The notes beneath the pieces are model-generated. The model was not told the DNA's origin. It saw only the letters and a program-made list of their open reading frames with translations, and did not search any database. A stretch of DNA of 64,000 nt from Myxococcales bacterium (lineage in GTDB: Bacteria; Myxococcota; UBA727; VGSZ01): NCBI GenBank assembly GCA_023248635.1, contig JAHFED010000021.1, forward strand, positions 1 through 64,000. The letters are read 5' to 3'. The translations under genes and the position numbers were made by a program. Below, piece after piece: positions 25,477 through 49,462 of the stretch; the stretch's first letter is position 1; the number at the start of each line of letters is the position of its first letter.

Positions 25477-26850
25477 ATGATGTCCATCTCTCGTCGTCAC
25501 CTGCTGAAGGTGGCCGGTCTGGCGGCGGTGGCTCCGACGCTCTTGCTCGGCCGTCGCGCCCGCGCCAACGCTGCCACCGGACAAGTGAAGCACGTGCTGG
25601 TGTTGAACCTGCGCGGTGGCTTTCGCAGCCACTGCACCTTCAACGCCGTGGGCAGCTTTCAACACAACCCCTTCGGCTCGCAGAGCAGCGTCGCCGGTAC
25701 CGAGTGGACACTCGGGGCCGCCTGCGGCGCGCGCTCCTATGCCTCGAGTTTGGGACAGGTTCCAGCCTTCGCCGACGTCACCGATCAGGTTTGCGTCCTG
25801 GGCTCGGTCGATCAGAACCCGGGCGGCCCCGCGGAAATCGATCACGTCGCCGGCCAGCGTCGCGTCGGCACCGGTTTCCCCGACGGCGAAAACGGCCTCC
25901 TCTCCATCGTCGGCGCCCACCATCCGCTGTACCGAGATGGCTTCAACGCCGACGTGTTGCCCCCCGTCGAGATCGGACCCTCGGAGTTCGGCATCGGCGT
26001 CGGCGACTACGGCGAACGCCGACCCCTCACCTTGTTCGGCGTGCAGTTCGGTGGCGGCACCGGCGCGGGTACGACGGCGGGCTGGCACACCGAGCTGCGC
26101 AAGAAGCTCGACGAGCGTTTTCTGGCCAAGCGCTCCCGCGCCTACCAGCGCAGGCTCAAGGCCTTTCGTCTGGCCAAGGAAAACGCCGCGCTCTTTTCGG
26201 GCATGCTGCAGGACCCCCGCCTCGACATCGTCCGCAGCCCCGACGCCGTCGACGCCGGCGTCAGCAACGCCGCTCTCCTCGAGGTGTTGGGCAACCACGA
26301 CCTCACAGAGATTGGCGATCCCCAGCCGAGCATTTCCTGGGGTGCCGACATCGCCCTCGCCCTGCGCTGCTTCTCCTTGGGCTCGCCGATGGTGACCGTG
26401 GCTCGCGATGTCTACGACATGCACGACATCGAGGCCGACGCCTACGCGCCGCGCAGCGAGGACTTGGTGCGGCAGCTCACGGGCCTGCACTTCTTGCTGA
26501 AACGCATGCCCTACCCCGAGGGAGGCACCTATTGGGACAAGACCCTCGTCGTCACCACCAGCGAGTTCAGCCGCAACAACACGCAGCTGCTCACGGGCTT
26601 CAACACCGGCAACGGCTCGGATCACGTGGGCGACGCCGACGACCCCGCGCGCAACCAGGCCATCGTCATGATGGGGGGCGTCGTCGCCGCAGCCGGCAAG
26701 CTGATTGGCGCCACCGACGACGCCATCAAGGCAACCGGCGACGTCATTGCCAGCCGCGATGTGTTGGCCACTGTGCTCGACGTGTTGGGGCTCGATCCCA
26801 CCGAGCACCTCGGCAGCAAAGCCAAGGCGATCGCGCAGGTGTTCTCATGA
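25477..26850 (+). CDS. Tat-exported DUF1501 family protein
   Basis: This 457-aa protein starts with a twin-arginine signal (SRRHLLKVAGLAAVAPTLLL) ending near residue 33, so it is exported folded. The following sequence (KHVLVLNLRGGFRSH, the His/Asp-rich middle, VVTTSEFSRNN, NGSDHVGD) matches the DUF1501 family, which has an alkaline-phosphatase/sulfatase-like fold. Its substrate is unknown. The ATG at 25477 follows AGGAG by 5 nt; a second ATG is at 25480. The stop overlaps the next start (ATGA), so it is coupled with a small c-type-like lipoprotein. Together with the DUF1549-like gene this forms a PSD1/DUF1501-type cluster. Confidence 0.88.
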   Translation: MMSISRRHLLKVAGLAAVAPTLLLGRRARANAATGQVKHVLVLNLRGGFRSHCTFNAVGSFQHNPFGSQSSVAGTEWTLGAACGARSYASSLGQVPAFADVTDQVCVLGSVDQNPGGPAEIDHVAGQRRVGTGFPDGENGLLSIVGAHHPLYRDGFNADVLPPVEIGPSEFGIGVGDYGERRPLTLFGVQFGGGTGAGTTAGWHTELRKKLDERFLAKRSRAYQRRLKAFRLAKENAALFSGMLQDPRLDIVRSPDAVDAGVSNAALLEVLGNHDLTEIGDPQPSISWGADIALALRCFSLGSPMVTVARDVYDMHDIEADAYAPRSEDLVRQLTGLHFLLKRMPYPEGGTYWDKTLVVTTSEFSRNNTQLLTGFNTGNGSDHVGDADDPARNQAIVMMGGVVAAAGKLIGATDDAIKATGDVIASRDVLATVLDVLGLDPTEHLGSKAKAIAQVFS

Positions 26851-27755
26851 GTCGCGTCTTGGCTTCGCTCTCCCTTTTGGCGGCGCTCAGCGCTTGCCCG
26901 GTCGATCCCGTGGTCACCGACATCGACGAAGCCCGGGCGCTGACGGCGACGGCCAAGTCGAAGTTCCCTCGCGTGGTCGATCTGCACCAGAAGATCGTCG
27001 CCCGCTCCTGCGCCCCCAACACCGGGGTCTGTCACAACACCAACAACTATCCCGAGCTCGCGACGCCGGCGTCGTTCCTGGCTTCGATCAACGCTTGGTG
27101 CAACCTCGCGAGTCCCGACCCCGCCCAGGGCTTCGACCTCTGCGAGCGCGCCGGCGACGTCCTCGTCAGCGGCAGCTTTCAGTCCGAGGTCGCTCACACC
27201 GAACGTCAGCCCGACGGGGGTTGGCAGCTGACCCTCCGCGACCCCGCCCCCCGCACCGACGACGTCGCCCCCGTCCGGTTCAAGTCCGCGCTCAACGAGC
27301 TGGTGTTTCAGCCCTTGCCCGAGTGGGGCGTGACCATCGCCATGGTCGAAGGCTCCACCCAGATCTCGTTGAGCATCGCCATCGAAGAGCCCTTCTTCGC
27401 CGAGCCCTACATCGACGAAGCCCTCACCGCGCTCGTGCAGGGCGATCAGAACGGCAACGGGGTCTTCGGCGCCGCCGACGTCGACGACGGCGTCAGCGAA
27501 GCGCGGGTCGGGGCTACGGTCATCGCTCCCCAGTCCCTGCTGCGCAGCTATCTGTGGGGACGCATCACCGGCACGGTGCCAGGCTCGCGCATGCCCCTGG
27601 CCAACCAGGCTCTCAGCGACGACGAATACCTGGCCTTGGCCTGCTTCATCGAAGGCTTACCCGCCAACGGATCCTTGCCCGCCACCGACGCCGCCATTGA
27701 CTACGACGCCTGCGCCTTCGCCAAAGAGCCGATCCTTTTTGCGATCAAGGACTGA
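26847..27755 (+). CDS. Lipoprotein with cytochrome-c-like CH motif
   Basis: This 302-aa protein has a lipobox LSAC with Cys17. Residues 55-63 hold Cys, six residues, then Cys-His. It is a widened form of the haem-attachment motif CxxCH, seen in the cytochrome-like domains that accompany DUF1549/DUF1501 proteins. Whether haem binds is uncertain. The middle is beta-rich, and a D-x-N-x-D-like loop (GDQNGNGVFGAADVDDG) may bind calcium. The protein ends in a helical part with LACFIEGLP, typical of cytochrome c C-termini. It overlaps the DUF1501 stop by ATGA. Its last 11 bases overlap the convergent HExxH gene. Confidence 0.78.
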   Translation: MSRVLASLSLLAALSACPVDPVVTDIDEARALTATAKSKFPRVVDLHQKIVARSCAPNTGVCHNTNNYPELATPASFLASINAWCNLASPDPAQGFDLCERAGDVLVSGSFQSEVAHTERQPDGGWQLTLRDPAPRTDDVAPVRFKSALNELVFQPLPEWGVTIAMVEGSTQISLSIAIEEPFFAEPYIDEALTALVQGDQNGNGVFGAADVDDGVSEARVGATVIAPQSLLRSYLWGRITGTVPGSRMPLANQALSDDEYLALACFIEGLPANGSLPATDAAIDYDACAFAKEPILFAIKD

Positions 27756-39406: not shown

Positions 39407-40477
39407 CTAGAGAAACGTCAGTAGATTTCGCAGGAACGCGCGACCGATGGTCGGCCGCAACACGGTCTTGGTCGCGCTGCGCGAAGGACCGTCGAGCAGA
39501 CGCCGGGTGGAGGTGCCAACGGCGTCGTTGTCGACGCCGCCGACGATGATGCCGATCTGCAACATGCGCAGGGTGTCGACGGGAACATCTTCCAGGCGGC
39601 CTGAGTCTTTGGTGTCACCGACGGCGTTGCCAAACCACTCGTCGTCGTTGCTGTTGTCGTCGAAGATGATGCCGTCGCCGTCGGCGTCGTAGCCCTGCGC
39701 GACCTGGAAGTCGAAGACCTCCTCGGCAGCGACGATGCGCTCCGAGGCGGCGATGACGCCGTCGTCGTTGGTGTCGAGCTCGCGGATCAAGCGATTGTCG
39801 GAGTCGCGGTACCAGCGCTCCACCGTCGCCGCTACCACGAGCCCACCGACGAAATTGTCCTGGTTGCCGGGCATCCTCGACAAGCTGTCGTCGACGGCCA
39901 TGCCACCGCCGCCGGGTGGAAAGGTCACGCGACAGTTCGAGGTGTTCGAGTTGTTGGACACCGCGACGCCCCACTCGTTGCCATCGGGCGTGATGATCGT
40001 GAGCTTCTTGTTTTCAAACGCGGCGGTGTTGCAGCACACCGTATGGGTGGCGGCGTCTTTGGCGAGCTCGAGGACGGAGCCAGCGCCGGGGCGCCCGACG
40101 ATGGCGCACTCGTCGACCTCCGGCTTCGAGCGAATGATGATCAACGTGTCCGAGTCGGTGGTGGAGTTGACCGCCTGCACGCTGGCCCAAGGCCGAATCC
40201 CCTTGCCGCCCGCACCCTGGGTGCTCGACACGAAGAAATCGATCAGATGCTTGGCCTGGTCGTCGACGATGGCGACTTCGCGCGTCTGGGCCAAGGTTCG
40301 CGACACGCTCAAGACGCTGCTGATCGACGCCGTCGTAACGATCACGGCGATGGCGCTGGCGACGACCAGCTCAATCAGAGAAAAAGCGCGCGCGGCGGTG
40401 CGGTGATCGCTTCGGGTCGCTTCTCGCCGAGGCGAAAGCGCGCACTCACCGAGCAGCGACTCTGCGCGACTGATCAA
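39407..40477 (-). CDS. PilW-like minor pilin
   Basis: This 356-aa protein has a prepilin motif ARAFSLIELVVASAIAVIVT (Glu at the +5 position) about 30 residues in. A hydrophobic helix and a large C-terminal domain follow, with a DxDGDG-type loop (YDADGDGIIFDD) and one (TNDDGVIAASE) that may bind calcium. It resembles PilW/PilJ minor pseudopilins of type IV pili. The TTG at 40477 overlaps the stop of the preceding gene by 4 nt (TTGA) and is the most likely start; the leader is longish. The downstream PilX-like gene follows after about 150 bp. Confidence 0.82.
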   Translation of the reverse strand: MISRAESLLGECALSPRREATRSDHRTAARAFSLIELVVASAIAVIVTTASISSVLSVSRTLAQTREVAIVDDQAKHLIDFFVSSTQGAGGKGIRPWASVQAVNSTTDSDTLIIIRSKPEVDECAIVGRPGAGSVLELAKDAATHTVCCNTAAFENKKLTIITPDGNEWGVAVSNNSNTSNCRVTFPPGGGGMAVDDSLSRMPGNQDNFVGGLVVAATVERWYRDSDNRLIRELDTNDDGVIAASERIVAAEEVFDFQVAQGYDADGDGIIFDDNSNDDEWFGNAVGDTKDSGRLEDVPVDTLRMLQIGIIVGGVDNDAVGTSTRRLLDGPSRSATKTVLRPTIGRAFLRNLLTFL

Positions 40478-40896
40478 GTGCGATCCGTGGTGAGAGAGAA
40501 CTTCCGCGCCCGACCTTGGCCATCGGTCCAGCGCACGACGACGTTGATGCGGCGCAGCCCAGTGACGGGTGTATCCGCCTGAACCACCCACGCCGTGGTG
40601 AAGATCCCGCCCGCCGGCACCACCGCGCCGTCGATGTCGTAGCGAGAGCCGGCCACCTCGACGTCGCTCGTGAGCTGGGCGGCCCCATTTGGCAGCACCA
40701 AGAGCTGCTCGATCTGGCCTTCGGCGAGATGGAGAGCTTGGGTCAACATGCGGTGATCCTCTTTGATCTGGCGCGAGGTGCCGATGGCCGAGACCACACC
40801 GGTCAACGCGGTGATGAAGATCGTCGACGAGAAAATCACCTCGAGGAGGCTGAAGCCCCGGCCCTCCCCCCGGTGAGGCCCCGCGGCGCCCATCAC
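40474..40896 (-). CDS. PilV-like prepilin
   Basis: This 140-aa type IV prepilin-like protein has the cleavage motif RGFSLLEVIFSSTIFITALTG near residue 13, with the conserved Phe and Glu. It corresponds to PilV/GspI-type minor pilins, which form the tip initiation complex. The start is either GTG at 40896 (4-nt overlap with the GspH-like stop) or ATG at 40893 (1-nt overlap). Its stop overlaps the TTG of the PilW-like gene. Confidence 0.85.
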   Translation of the reverse strand: MMGAAGPHRGEGRGFSLLEVIFSSTIFITALTGVVSAIGTSRQIKEDHRMLTQALHLAEGQIEQLLVLPNGAAQLTSDVEVAGSRYDIDGAVVPAGGIFTTAWVVQADTPVTGLRRINVVVRWTDGQGRARKFSLTTDRT

Positions 40897-41369
40897 CCAG
40901 CACCCTTCACGCGACGGGTGACGCCGGTGATCGGCAAGACGCGCAAGGTCCCGAGGCTCGCGCCCGTCGAGCAGTTGTTTTCGACGGTGCGGATCTTGGC
41001 CGCCGTCGTCGCGTTGATGCTGCCATCGGGCTGAAACACCAGCTTGCCATCACCGGTGTCGAAGGCGCAGGGCTTCGCGCGTTTCAAGGTCAGCGACGTC
41101 GACGAGACGAGGGTCGTGAGCGCGCAGGTGTCATAGGCCGTAAACGTGATCTGTTGGCCGGCGACAGCGACTTCGACGCAGCGACGCGAGGTGCGCGCGA
41201 GATTGCGAGCGCGCTTGAGGGCGTCTTCGACGACGATGAGGTCCCCTTGGCGTTCGAGCCTCGTGGTGATCCCCTCGAGGCGCGGCAATGCCAGGCTCGC
41301 GAGCACGCCGACCATCGCGACGACGACGATGAGTTCGAGGAGCGACACAGCGCGGAGTTGACGGGGCAT
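40893..41369 (-). CDS. GspH/FimT-like pseudopilin
   Basis: This 158-aa protein has a leader MPRQLRA before VSLLELIVVVAMVGVLASLALP, a type IV pilin N-terminal helix with Glu at the fifth position of the mature part. The soluble part, with four cysteines, follows the GspH/FimT pattern. It is the first gene of the pseudopilin operon. The 192-bp region upstream (41370-41561) holds a TTGACT at about 41450 on the minus strand but no convincing partner box. Confidence 0.85.
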   Translation of the reverse strand: MPRQLRAVSLLELIVVVAMVGVLASLALPRLEGITTRLERQGDLIVVEDALKRARNLARTSRRCVEVAVAGQQITFTAYDTCALTTLVSSTSLTLKRAKPCAFDTGDGKLVFQPDGSINATTAAKIRTVENNCSTGASLGTLRVLPITGVTRRVKGAG

Positions 41370-43971: not shown

Positions 43972-45369
43972 ATGCGATCGAACTCGGTGTCGTGCTTGTT
44001 TGTCGCCGGGGGCCTGACCCTGGCCTCCCTGGTCCACGCGCAGGGGGCGCCACCAGCAGACAGCGCCACCGAGCCGGTGGATGCTCCGCCGCCCGTCGTT
44101 GCCGCACCGCCGGTGGTGGAGGCGCCACCGCCCCCCGTCGAGGCGCCTCCTGCTGTGCCGGCGCCGCCTGTCGATGTACCGCCGCCCCCGCTCGCTGCCA
44201 CCCCTGCCGTGGCCGCGGGCCCGGCGCGTTCCCCCACCGCTGGTCCGCAGCTCGAAGGACCCCGCGACGGCTTGCCCGATTGCCGCGCGAGCGCCGCGGC
44301 GTGCGCGAAGAACGAGCTCTTTGCTCTGTGGCCGCGTCTGCGGCTGCGCACCGGCTACGAGCTCGTGCAGCCCGACAGCCAGATCCTCACCGTCGGACAA
44401 AACGACGGCTTCTTCATCGACGAAGCCCAAGTTGGCGTCGACGGAGCCTTCAAGGACGACCTGCGCTTTCGCTTGTTGATCGACGTCATCACGCTGGTTC
44501 CCGGTGGGGCGCCCAACGATCCAGTGCAGTCCGTCAACGCCGCCGTGCGGGATGCCTGGGTGGCCTGGATTCCCTCGGATTGGTTCTTCGTCTCCGCCGG
44601 GCAACAGTTCATGCCCGAGGATTTGGAGGGCGCGACGTCGCTGGCCAACTTGCCCTTCGCGCGCCGCTCGGTGGCCAGCGCCGGCGTCCGCCCGGGGCAC
44701 GGCTTCGCGGTCTCGGGTCTGTCGCCGTCGCGGCAGCTCGGCGTGGTGGCCGGCTCGACGGAAAACGCCCGCTTGGGCCCGGTCGGTCTCGAGTACCTGT
44801 TCGGCATCGGCAACGGCAACGGCCAGAACATCGCGGGCAACGACAACAAGCTGCCCGCCGTCTACGCGCGTCTGGGCGTCGCCTACGAAGACGTTGCCCG
44901 CGTCGGCGTCGGCGGCCGGAACAACCCGCGCACCGTGGGGACCCTGCCCAACCTCTTCAACGAGGTCGACAACGTCGGCTTCGTCGACGCCAGCGTCAAG
45001 CTGTTTGGCATCAGCGCGGCGGGGCAGGGCATCTTCAAACAGACCGCGTTTGGCACTTTGTTTCCCGAGGCTGGCGACGGATCCACCGACGTCGGCATGG
45101 GCGTCTCTGCTTGGATCTTCGCCGACGCACCCTTTGGGGTTTCCTTGTGCGGGGTCATCCCGGCCTACCGCTTCAGCTACTACGATCCGAGCTCCACCTT
45201 CCTCGACGATCAGCTCATCGAAAACAGCCTCGGCGTGCGCTGGAACGTTCCCGTCGAGCACCTGCCGCTCTCGCTCTTCGTCGACGGCACCCTGTTGACC
45301 GAGTTCGGCGACAACGTGCGCGACCTCGACAACGCCCGTCTCACCGCCCTGCTGCAACTGGAGCTCTGA
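43972..45369 (+). CDS. OprP/OprO-like outer-membrane porin
   Basis: This 465-aa protein has a signal peptide cleaved near VHA-QG (residues 23-24), then a Pro/Ala-rich segment (about 25-85). A 16- or 18-strand-type barrel follows, matching the phosphate-selective porin O/P pattern (DAWVAWIPSDWFFVSAGQQFMPEDLEG, GVAYEDVARVGVGG, a final aromatic-poor strand LTALLQLEL). It would form a channel for anions or other small solutes. The ATG at 43972 follows GGAG by 5 nt. Its stop shares one base with the start of the Cys-rich gene (TGATG), so they are co-translated. Confidence 0.82.
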   Translation: MRSNSVSCLFVAGGLTLASLVHAQGAPPADSATEPVDAPPPVVAAPPVVEAPPPPVEAPPAVPAPPVDVPPPPLAATPAVAAGPARSPTAGPQLEGPRDGLPDCRASAAACAKNELFALWPRLRLRTGYELVQPDSQILTVGQNDGFFIDEAQVGVDGAFKDDLRFRLLIDVITLVPGGAPNDPVQSVNAAVRDAWVAWIPSDWFFVSAGQQFMPEDLEGATSLANLPFARRSVASAGVRPGHGFAVSGLSPSRQLGVVAGSTENARLGPVGLEYLFGIGNGNGQNIAGNDNKLPAVYARLGVAYEDVARVGVGGRNNPRTVGTLPNLFNEVDNVGFVDASVKLFGISAAGQGIFKQTAFGTLFPEAGDGSTDVGMGVSAWIFADAPFGVSLCGVIPAYRFSYYDPSSTFLDDQLIENSLGVRWNVPVEHLPLSLFVDGTLLTEFGDNVRDLDNARLTALLQLEL

Positions 45370-45815
45370 TGTCGTCGACGACGCCGGCTGTGGGGCCGCC
45401 GCCCCTGGATCTGCGGGAATTCGAGAGAGCTTTTCAGGCGCTCAGGGCCGGCTACCAGGGCGCCGCCGACAACCCGCAGGGCTTCGAGCTCAAGGACTGC
45501 CGGCATTGCAGCAGCTGCATGTTCTGCGTCGGCTGCGAATCTTGCTATCGCTGCACGCACTGCAACAACTGCAACCAATGCAGCAATTGTACGCATTGTG
45601 CGGAGTGCGAGGGTTGCCACCAGAGCGCCTACTGCAGCAAGTCAAAGCGCTGCGTCGGCTGCAAGTACCTCGAACACTGCGACTCCTGCGCAGATTGCAC
45701 CTATTGTTTCGCGTGTGTCGGATTGTCGAAAAAAGATTTCCATATCCTCAATCAGCAATACGATAAGAGGACCTACTTCGATCTGGTCGCCAAGCTTCGA
45801 AAAATCTATCGTTGA
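45369..45815 (+). CDS. Strictly periodic C-x-x protein (22 Cys)
   Basis: This 148-aa protein carries cysteine at every third residue from 44 to 83 (14 in a row). Eight further cysteines at 89, 95, 98, 104, 107, 110, 113 and 116 fall in the same phase: 22 of 25 positions in one three-residue register. There is no signal peptide, so the thiols are probably reduced and metal-binding (Zn or Fe-S), or they form one face of a beta-solenoid. The tail LSKKDFHILNQQYDKRTYF resembles the tail of Cys-rich proteins I recall from other uncultured bacteria, of unknown function. It overlaps the porin stop by one base. Codons after about 45715 become AT-rich. Confidence 0.85.
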   Translation: MSSTTPAVGPPPLDLREFERAFQALRAGYQGAADNPQGFELKDCRHCSSCMFCVGCESCYRCTHCNNCNQCSNCTHCAECEGCHQSAYCSKSKRCVGCKYLEHCDSCADCTYCFACVGLSKKDFHILNQQYDKRTYFDLVAKLRKIYR

Positions 45816-45817
45816 GC

Positions 45818-47089
45818 ATGGTTCGCGAACGGCATGTGGGCCGGCGGTTGTGGCGGCGACGCAAACGCCGGGCTGCCACTGATCCCCAGCCCGATGAGGG
45901 TGCAGCGAGCGCCTCCCCCCTCCCCGGACAGGCCATGGCCGACGACGACGACGACGCCTCTGTGCCCGTCACGGTGGCGGTGCCCAAACGCGGCTTCTTC
46001 GCTCGCCTCTTTGGCGCTCCACCGGTGCCTCCGTCCGATGCCTTCGTCACCGACCCGGTGCAAGAGATCCTGGCCCTGCCGCGGGGGCCGGCCCGGCTGG
46101 ATGCCTTCGAGAAGAAGCTGCAGCAGCTCGCCGTCGGCAGCGCCGAGCACAAGAAGGTCGCGCTGGGCTTCCACCGCGAGCTCACCCTCTTGGTGAGAGA
46201 CGCCGGCGTCGACCTCGGCCTGTACGAGTCGCGGGTCACCGCTTGTGCACGGGCGTTGATCGAAGCCGGCGAAGACGAGCGCGCCGGCACCCTCTTTGCG
46301 AAGATCGGACGTCGTCACCAGGCCGCCGAGCTCTTCGTCAAAGCTGGCGCCATCGACGCCCTCGAAGAAGCCCACGCCGAGCTCTCCTTCGCCGAGGGGG
46401 GCCCCAAATTCGACGCGCGCTTGAGCTTCGAACGCTTCGAGGCCTTGTTCCTCGTCGGGCTGCGCGACGATGCGCTCTTGGCCTTGCGTCAAGCTGTGAA
46501 GCTCTGGGACCACCCCGTCTACGCCGAGGTGCTGCAGGGCTTCTTGGGCCGTTTGCCTCCCCCCCGTCGCCTGACGCTGCAAGCTGGTGACGACGTCGTG
46601 CGGGTGTTTGGCCGCTTTCCGCTGGTGCTGGGGCGGGGCGAGGACAGCGCTGTGCGCATCGACAGCCCCCTGGTCTCGCGCGCTCACGTGCAGATCGAGA
46701 GGGCGACCAACGACGCGCTGATGATCAAAGACATGGTGTCGTCGGGAGGCACCAAGGTGTGCGGCGTCGTCATCCACGGCGCCGGGCTCTTGCCAGCTGC
46801 GGGACACATCGACCTGGCCGGCGTCGTCGTCGATGTCGAACGCAGCAGCGAGCGCCTCTTGTTGCGCCCCCAGGCGCGCCCACGGCAGGTCACGCTGGCG
46901 CCCTTTGGCGAGGTCCTCGACGACGACGTGGTCGGATTCCGCCTCACCCTCAGCGACGATCGGGTGCGGGTGGGCATCGATGCACGGGTGCGCTTGAACG
47001 GCGAGGTGCTGCGCCGAGAGACCCTCCTGCTGGCGGGGGACCGGCTGCAGGTCGGCGGACGCACCTTCTCCGTCGTGGGAAGTTCGTGA
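45818..47089 (+). CDS. FHA domain protein with helical-repeat N-terminus
   Basis: This 423-aa protein has a basic N-terminus (RRLWRRRKRR) and an Asp-rich stretch, then helical-repeat sequence at about 90-250 (RALIEAGEDERAGTLFAKIGRR). An FHA domain at about 265-350 has GRGEDSAVRI and SRAHVQIE and should read phosphothreonine. A further beta-rich region, possibly a second, degenerate FHA, ends the protein. Alternative starts are TTG at 45812, overlapping the previous stop, and ATG at 45935. FHA proteins usually act with Ser/Thr kinases, but none is in the window. Confidence 0.8.
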   Translation: MVRERHVGRRLWRRRKRRAATDPQPDEGAASASPLPGQAMADDDDDASVPVTVAVPKRGFFARLFGAPPVPPSDAFVTDPVQEILALPRGPARLDAFEKKLQQLAVGSAEHKKVALGFHRELTLLVRDAGVDLGLYESRVTACARALIEAGEDERAGTLFAKIGRRHQAAELFVKAGAIDALEEAHAELSFAEGGPKFDARLSFERFEALFLVGLRDDALLALRQAVKLWDHPVYAEVLQGFLGRLPPPRRLTLQAGDDVVRVFGRFPLVLGRGEDSAVRIDSPLVSRAHVQIERATNDALMIKDMVSSGGTKVCGVVIHGAGLLPAAGHIDLAGVVVDVERSSERLLLRPQARPRQVTLAPFGEVLDDDVVGFRLTLSDDRVRVGIDARVRLNGEVLRRETLLLAGDRLQVGGRTFSVVGSS

Positions 47090-47203: not shown

Positions 47204-49462
47204 GTGGTGTTCCCGATCCTGTTCTCACTGGTCACCGTCGTCGTCGTCGGCGCCGCCTTCTCCTTCATGGGCTTGGCGCTGGGGCGCATCGCCTCGATGA
47301 TCAACACCGGCACCCGCGACGAGTCACACACCGATTTGATCCGCAGCCGCATCAACATGGTGATCCAGATTGTCTTTGGTCATAAGAAGACACTCGAAGA
47401 TCGCACCTCTGGATTGCTTCACATCGCATTCATCTATGGCTTTTTCATCCTTGGCATCGGCCATACCGAAATCGTGCTCGAGGGCCTTACCTATTTCATG
47501 AAGGCCTTCGGTAAGGAACCATTTCTCTATGAGAGAATTCCGGGGCTGGCTCATCATCATGCTTTGATTCAATTCTATCACATCACCCAGGACTCGATGG
47601 CCTTCCTGGTGTTGACGGCAGTGGTGATCGCGTTGTGGCGACGTTGGAGCGGCGCCGTTCCCCGCCTGCAACCTCGCTCCGCCGACGCCGAAGCCATTTT
47701 GTACTTCATCGGCATGTTGTATGTGACATTTTTCATGCTCAACGGCACCGGTCACCTGATGCACGATGACTTTATCTGGCACTTCGACTGGTCCCAACCC
47801 TTTAGCTCGATCGCGGCCTATCCTTGGACTATCGTGACGACGATGACAGTGAAGTCCTGGAATTTCTTTGCCTGGTGGATGCACGTCTTCACCTTCCTGT
47901 TGTTCGGCTGTTACATCCCACTTTCCAAGCACATGCATCTGGTCTTCGCCGGACCGAACACCTATTTCTTTCAAAAGGGTGCCTACGCCTGGCGCCAACC
48001 CGCCGTCGTCGCCGTCGAAAAGCAAAAGCCCCCCCAAGAGCGCGCCCGCCCCATGGGCCTGCCGCCCAAGATCAACTTCGACATCGCCGAGAAGTTCGGC
48101 ATCGACCGCGTCAACGAGCTCCCCTGGAAGACCCTGCTCGATGGCTTTGCCTGCACCGAATGCGGCCGCTGCAACGACGTCTGCCCGGCGCACCTGACCC
48201 ACAAGCCGCTCAAGCCCAAGAAGGTGCTGCACGACCTCAAGGTCAACTTGAAGCACAACGGTCCAACCCTCTTGCAGACGCGGGATCTCTTTGGCCGCCC
48301 CGTCGAGGCTCTCAAGGACCAAGAGGCTGCTCTCGAGCTCTTCCCCCTCATCACCAAAGAGCCCCAGGACCAAAGCGACCCCCTCGCCGTGCGCCCCCTC
48401 GATGGCCTCTACAAGCACGTCGACGGCCAGATCCACGTCGACGAAGCCTGGGCCTGCACCACCTGCGGCGCCTGCTTCGAGGCCTGCCCCGTGCTCATCG
48501 ACTCGGTGCCCGGCGCGCTCATTGGCATCCGTCAGTCGCTGGTGATGATGGAGAGCGACATGTCTCCCGAGGTGCAAAACACGCTCAAGAACATCGAGCG
48601 GCGCGGCAACCCCTGGGGCCTGGGTCAAGACAAGCGCATGGACTGGGCAGAAGGGCTCGATGTGCCGGTGTTCGCCGACCTCGTCGCCGAGCAGCCCGAT
48701 CGCCAGGTCGAGTACCTCTTCTGGGTCGGTTGCGCGGGCAGCACCGACGACAGCGCCAAGAAGGTGCAGCAGGCCCTCGTGCGCATCTTGAAGGCCGCCA
48801 AGGTCGACTACGCCGTCTTGGGCTGCGAGGAAAAATGCACCGGCGATCCGGCGCGCCGCCTCGGCAACGAAGCGCTGTTCAACCAGCTCGCCCAAGAGAA
48901 CATCGAGACGCTAAAACAGTATAAATTTAAGAAGATCTTCACGACATGTCCACACTGTTTCAACAGCCTGAAACAAGAATACGGCGAATTCGGCGTCGAC
49001 TACTCGGTGCAGCACCACACCGAGCTCCTCGCCGAGCTCCTCAAAGACAAGCGCGTCCCTCTCGACACCAAGTCCAAGCTCGAGGAGCACGTCACCTTCC
49101 ACGATCCCTGCTATCTGGGAAGATACAATAAACAATACGACGCACCGCGCGAAGTTCTCTATGCAATCGGCGACAAAGCCAAAATCAAAGAGATGAAGCG
49201 CAGCAAGGAGTCCAGCTTCTGCTGCGGCGCGGGCGGCGGGCGCATGTTCATGGAAGAGCACATCGGCGAGCGCGTGAACGTCAAGCGCACCGAGCAAGCC
49301 ATGGACACGGGTGCGACGACGGTGGCGGTGGGTTGTCCCTTCTGCAAGGTGATGATCACCGATGGCACCAAGACCAAGGACGTCGAAGAAAAAATCAAGG
49401 TCAGGGACATCGCCGAGCTCTTGGCCGATCGCCTGCTCGCGCCGGCGCCCGCGCCCCGCTGA
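47204..49462 (+). CDS. Membrane Fe-S oxidoreductase (ETF:menaquinone oxidoreductase-like)
   Basis: This 752-aa protein fuses a five-helix NarI-like b-type membrane domain (residues about 1-250, several His in helices: GHTEIVLEG, FYHITQDS, GHLMHDDF) to two 4Fe-4S sites. These are CTECGRCNDVCP near 317 and CTTCGACFEACP near 417. Two CCG domains of the heterodisulfide reductase type follow (TCPHCFNSLK, HDPCYLGRYN, FCCGAGGGRMF, CPFC). This is the layout of the ETF:menaquinone oxidoreductase proteins that pass electrons from beta-oxidation via ETF to quinone. No etfAB is adjacent. The start is a GTG at 47204 with GAGG upstream. Islands of AT-ending codons lie at 47375-47600 and 48905-48990. Confidence 0.88.
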   Translation: MVFPILFSLVTVVVVGAAFSFMGLALGRIASMINTGTRDESHTDLIRSRINMVIQIVFGHKKTLEDRTSGLLHIAFIYGFFILGIGHTEIVLEGLTYFMKAFGKEPFLYERIPGLAHHHALIQFYHITQDSMAFLVLTAVVIALWRRWSGAVPRLQPRSADAEAILYFIGMLYVTFFMLNGTGHLMHDDFIWHFDWSQPFSSIAAYPWTIVTTMTVKSWNFFAWWMHVFTFLLFGCYIPLSKHMHLVFAGPNTYFFQKGAYAWRQPAVVAVEKQKPPQERARPMGLPPKINFDIAEKFGIDRVNELPWKTLLDGFACTECGRCNDVCPAHLTHKPLKPKKVLHDLKVNLKHNGPTLLQTRDLFGRPVEALKDQEAALELFPLITKEPQDQSDPLAVRPLDGLYKHVDGQIHVDEAWACTTCGACFEACPVLIDSVPGALIGIRQSLVMMESDMSPEVQNTLKNIERRGNPWGLGQDKRMDWAEGLDVPVFADLVAEQPDRQVEYLFWVGCAGSTDDSAKKVQQALVRILKAAKVDYAVLGCEEKCTGDPARRLGNEALFNQLAQENIETLKQYKFKKIFTTCPHCFNSLKQEYGEFGVDYSVQHHTELLAELLKDKRVPLDTKSKLEEHVTFHDPCYLGRYNKQYDAPREVLYAIGDKAKIKEMKRSKESSFCCGAGGGRMFMEEHIGERVNVKRTEQAMDTGATTVAVGCPFCKVMITDGTKTKDVEEKIKVRDIAELLADRLLAPAPAPR

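Follow-up and report, generated by a model that had tools for sequence, protein, structure and literature searches.

One gene in the 64,000-nucleotide stretch of Myxococcales DNA analysed here (the window) raises the question of what kind of protein carries a cysteine at almost every third residue. The ORF begins with an ATG at 45369 and ends with a stop at 45813–45815, and its translation confirmed the predicted register: cysteine occupies 22 of the 25 third positions between residues 44 and 116, with an unbroken run of 14 from residue 44 to residue 83 (44, 47, 50 ... 83) and further cysteines at 89, 95, 98, 104, 107, 110, 113 and 116. The three exceptions are S86, S92 and L101. In line with the original prediction, no signal peptide was seen, no hydrophobic stretch being visible at the N-terminus. 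A pattern of eight in-frame Cys codons in a row, spaced at period 9, matched 7 times in the window, compared to a mean of 0.00 in 100 dinucleotide shuffles of it, and six-TGY runs at period 9 elsewhere in the 6.5 Mb genome were mostly simple DNA repeats. Searches of Pfam and NCBIfam with the array protein matched no family.

Features of the array gene and its immediate neighbours in the window
Feature	Position	Strand	Basis
Porin-like gene, upstream	43972..45369	+	Porin_O_P PF07396, E = 5e-4, just below curated cut-off
Array gene (148 aa + stop)	45369..45815	+	Translation, single-copy homologues, pN/pS
N-terminal helix, residues 15-30, presumed solenoid cap	45411..45458	+	AF2, pLDDT about 80
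C-x-x array, residues 44-116	45498..45716	+	AF2 strands, period-12 conservation and covariation
Aromatic/His ladder, one residue per coil	45522..45704	+	Conservation, permutation p = 1.5e-4 for period 12
Invariant junction and C-terminal tail, residues 112-148	45702..45812	+	Conservation in 44 sequences
FHA-domain gene, downstream	45818..47089	+	FHA PF00498, E = 1.9e-8

The original prediction would have failed if the frame were not translated. Among relatives pN/pS is 0.11, as determined from 48 disjoint close pairs, and differences are concentrated at third codon positions (629, vs 268 and 243 at the other two). Judged from these comparisons, the array ORF is a real gene under protein-level selection. 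A whole-genome profile search of the window's own phylum, Myxococcota, found single-copy relatives in 128 of 195 genomes, with one full copy each; a single-sequence search found them in 58 of 97. In named assemblies we counted 70 loci with relatives, nearly all in Myxococcota. The hosts take in ordinary soil Myxococcota, Myxococcus xanthus is among the carriers, and the structural reading developed below is open to test in an organism amenable to genetics. In two congeneric species the array gene is missing or gives a weak match only. A record titled Comamonas sp. KCTC 72670 bears a Myxococcus-like copy; this assembly may be mislabelled. Residues 38–128 span exactly 91 residues, without indels in the array, in all of 115 distinct sequences bar one (L167), which we dropped from the family as it aligned through Arg/Cys low complexity alone. 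Viral contigs yielded no relatives by the family profile or by DNA patterns for the C-terminal motif. Pfam and NCBIfam gave no useful match for 44 relatives, including no antifreeze model and no Fe-S or metallothionein family, and our literature search on C-x-x arrays and on 'baif family protein' found no study of such proteins. Together, the relatives make up an unnamed family, single-copy and without a Pfam or NCBIfam model, that two thirds of the sampled genomes of the phylum carry.

The relatives show what is conserved in the array. In 61 relatives below 85% identity, the slots of the Cys phase hold C (72%), S (17%), L (8%), V (1.2%) and A (0.6%). Charged residues make up 0.00% of this phase, compared to 22% and 26% of the other two, and the Cys phase is therefore buried. 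Homologues with cysteines out of phase, which would have spoken against the original prediction, were not seen: relatives keep the phase but not the identity of the residue. Each relative has 12 to 23 cysteines in 26 slots (median 20), most slots exchange Cys for Ser, Leu or Val, and the C–S exchange is by far the commonest inferred change (111 of about 170). Only C113 is invariant; C47, C95 and C116 are near-invariant, so that these four are 97–100% conserved. Slot 41 is also Cys in relatives and slot 38 in some, making the array slightly longer there, and slot 86 is mostly Cys and slot 98 mostly Ser, the window's protein having S86 and C98. On the evidence of this alignment, Cys as such is not required in the core phase.

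Structure prediction had been proposed as a check, and AF2, run with an input alignment of 44 relatives, placed strands 12 residues apart (40–42, 52–54, 64–66, 76–78, 88–90, 100–102 and 112–114). Confidence was highest in the array (pLDDT 91–97 over residues 41–110; mean 80, pTM 0.62), and the five models spread from 80 to 56 in pLDDT. The strand spacing agrees with periods in the sequence, which are independent of AF2. Among outward positions, conservation is correlated between residues 12, 24 or 36 apart (r = 0.72, 0.70 and 0.61; 61 relatives) and at none of the other lags tested (other multiples of three). Outward covariation, measured by APC-corrected mutual information, has a lag-12 peak level with that at lag 1, reached in 0 of 2000 permutations, and rises also at lags 11 and 13 and again at 23–25.

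The protein very probably folds as a narrow beta-solenoid of about seven coils (counting residues 38–43), each 12 residues long and with Cys, Ser and Leu predicted to point inward. Sequence statistics together with one AF2 model argue for the coil length, the inward phase and the conserved face; by analogy, we assume that the solenoid is right-handed. Since every third residue of a 12-residue coil points inward, Cys would recur at period three and fill the whole four-slot core, and the puzzling sequence pattern would be accounted for by geometry, as period three within a twelve-residue coil. The original prediction of a single Cys-lined face on a triangular beta-solenoid is thus supported as regards the solenoid but not as regards the triangle or the single face, because a 12-residue coil has four inward slots.

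Outside the Cys phase, the positions of the aromatic/His ladder are Phe, His or Tyr in nearly all sequences and, together with F114, are the most conserved. In the window the ladder reads F52 (codon at 45522), H64 (45558), H76 (45594), Y88 (45630), Y100 (45666) and Y112 (45702), and beside it runs a Thr/Ser/Ala ladder at 63, 75, 87, 99 and 111. In the N-terminal helix, F18 and L25 are invariant across 44 sequences. In the same sequences Y112, C113, F114, V117–L119, K122–N128, F137 and L143 do not vary. The tail follows the pattern YCF-CVGLSKKDFHILN ... Y.K/R..YF ... L, with the invariant segment GLSKKDFHILN and the motif CFGCVGLSKKDFHILN; AF2 confidence in the tail is only 50–63.

A profile search of the PDB returned as its top match the Tenebrio molitor antifreeze protein (TmAFP, 1EZG, consensus TCTxSxNCxxAx), a weak match at E = 0.0017 with 34 bits of composition bias. 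Foldseek comparison of the AF2 model with 1EZG gave no significant match (E = 1.4, TM 0.45 by target). In TmAFP-type coils every third residue faces inward (PMC8038014). The array protein resembles TmAFP in its 12 residues per coil, its narrow core, and its inward residues of Cys/Ser/Ala type. However, TmAFP is secreted, has disulfides between positions 2 and 8 and displays ranks of Thr. The array protein instead has up to four Cys per coil, showing no coupling at lag 6, together with a rank of aromatic residues and His, and its coils lie between an N-terminal helix and a C-terminal tail. The residue that precedes each inward strand Cys corresponds in strand position to the first Thr of the TmAFP ice face, but is Phe, His or Tyr in the array protein. 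The original prediction knew no such fold for this sequence; the fold type is in fact a known one, that of TmAFP, while the family, which is unnamed, and its core chemistry are undescribed. Pentapeptide-repeat proteins, some of which are cytosolic binding scaffolds, also resemble the array protein. They are four-sided solenoids built from short repeats (PMC8145042). Their repeat is five residues long, however, and four of them make up a coil, in place of periods of three and twelve. The five-residue repeat A(D/N)LxX was not found in the array, which has period three within twelve and no Pfam match.

On balance we favour an account in which the protein is a cytosolic, helix-capped solenoid of 12-residue coils with an invariant tail, acting as a rigid adaptor. 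The inward residues of each coil (i, i+3, i+6 and i+9) would be small side chains, Cys or Ser/Leu/Val/Ala. The flat outer strand face would bear the Phe/His/Tyr ladder, with the Thr/Ser/Ala ladder beside it. This face and the tail segment GLSKKDFHILN would bind a partner (a protein, a nucleic acid or a second copy), and such binding would make the array protein a rigid adaptor. We infer the cytosolic location, the reduced core and the binding of a partner; the role as a cytosolic rigid adaptor or binding scaffold, taken by itself, is the likeliest one considered but a tentative proposal, with a chance somewhat short of even. The account suggests that coils of the beetle-antifreeze type are also found within bacterial cells, where thiols fill the core and another face is conserved.

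The cysteines might instead form a redox device, in which inward neighbours (i, i+3; i, i+9) are reversibly disulfide-bonded and sense or buffer oxidants. Many thiols are available for this in a protein that is probably cytosolic, at a median of 20 Cys in 26 slots, and the presence of Cys is positively associated between slots at lag 3 (p = 0.003), lag 9 (p = 0.0006) and lag 12 (p = 0.027), a modest effect in a slot permutation that leaves the common ancestry of the sequences in place. However, slots at lags 3, 9 and 12 are spatial neighbours in a four-slot coil, so packing too explains the association. Exchange of Cys for Ser is the prevailing change, and little access to thiols is to be expected in a narrow buried core. 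We therefore regard the redox device as unlikely. At lag 6, where TmAFP-type i/i+6 partners would lie, this indirect test detected no association of Cys presence (phi -0.01, p = 0.89), which makes TmAFP-like disulfides less likely. Reduced thiols in a packed core would be the simplest reading of the alignment, and a plausible one.

Less likely again is that the stacked inward thiols form four columns along the axis that do chemistry, as a metal or persulfide store or a redox-switched core. To our knowledge, such thiol-column chemistry has been described for no beta-solenoid; if true, it would be a thiol-column function kept across a bacterial phylum. It is also improbable, at slightly longer odds, that the core thiols serve as ligands for Zn, Cu(I) or Fe-S clusters. 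Such binding would fit the very high density of Cys and the strong conservation of C47, C95, C113 and C116, but these four lie in different coils, the C113/C116 pair excepted, the remaining slots vary among C, S, L and V, and no Fe-S or metallothionein family was matched. The linear metal-cluster wire considered in the original prediction fares poorly for a similar reason: Ser, Leu and Val replace Cys in most slots, and relatives keep anything from 12 to 23 of 26.

We also considered whether the array protein regulates or helps to assemble the porin with which it appears co-translated. In the window the stop of the porin-like gene and the array gene's start codon overlap (TGATG), and two further genomes of the window's order have porin-like genes directly upstream; the porin association noted originally therefore recurs within the order, but it was not seen elsewhere in the phylum. 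Other genes adjoin most relatives. In Myxococcaceae one neighbour is helicase-like and divergent, followed further out by pilT-, rpsI- and rplM-like genes, and another is rRNA methyltransferase-like and convergent; in Polyangia a D-aminoacyl-tRNA deacylase lies directly downstream; and in another group the neighbours are TPR-like and ATPase-like genes, all of these having been named by reading sequences and not by Pfam. The FHA-domain gene, which starts two bases after the array stop, is not conserved beside homologues. Since neighbours differ between lineages, no partner can be inferred from context; the porin operon was rejected as the key to function, as this context does not recur beyond the order, and a porin partner is very unlikely. 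Just downstream, at 47204–49462 (+), the window encodes a membrane protein with Fer4 and CCG domains, of heterodisulfide reductase type. At 39407–41369 (-) there is a pseudopilin cluster of three adjacent genes with the prepilin-type N-termini FSLIELVVA, FSLLEVIFS and SLLELIVVVAMVGVLASL.

An ice-binding protein of the beetle type can hardly be meant here: the 12-residue coil with inward third residues that belongs to IPR016133 is indeed present by AF2, conservation and covariation, and one relative, from a phage, bears the annotation 'insect antifreeze protein' (IPR016133), but the two Thr ranks (TxT) of the strand face are missing from the alignment, where Phe/His/Tyr and variable residues stand instead, no signal peptide was seen, and ordinary soil bacteria are among the hosts.

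Long in-phase C-x-x arrays like that of the Myxococcota protein also occur in proteins of Campylobacter, Vibrio and Flavobacterium phages and of one Campylobacter fetus plasmid. Named examples are the 'Caib/baif family protein' H6SUK4 of Campylobacter virus IBB35 and the 'insect antifreeze protein' of Vibrio phage 1.238. Although Cys-rich composition may inflate these scores, the array protein matched the PHROG 15341 profile at E = 1e-10 over residues 39–121, Foldseek against BFVD matched H6SUK4 with probability 1.00, and hhalign against the CP220, CP21 and Vibrio phage proteins gave 98.2%, with CFGCVGLSKK aligned to CFGCYGILKQ. Patescibacteria may have 'Caib/baif family' proteins with a similar CFGC-GL...NKQY motif. 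AF2 on a Campylobacter phage relative, given a three-sequence alignment, produced no confident fold (array pLDDT 36–43). The phage proteins, as read, have other N-termini and no DFHILN tail, and the length of their arrays varies widely, unlike in Myxococcota. Based on these sequence comparisons, common descent of the phage and Myxococcota proteins is possible. In Campylobacter phage CP21 a 284-residue protein (L175, 3001–3852) is almost wholly C-x-x array; because this array is much longer than the window's, the latter is not extreme. Related Campylobacter phages have arrays shorter than that of CP21. In Flavobacterium phage FL-1 (KY421186.2, about 26488–26911; L092, 2480–2903) the CDS APZ82901.1 seems misframed, reading as Ala-Pro repeats, and an alternative frame gives a long C-x-x array preceded by the N-terminus that the Vibrio phage 1.238 protein also has. 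An IMG/VR contig (3300024325_000004; L179, 3001–3633) encodes a phage-type N-terminus and a short C-x-x array fused to an unrelated domain.
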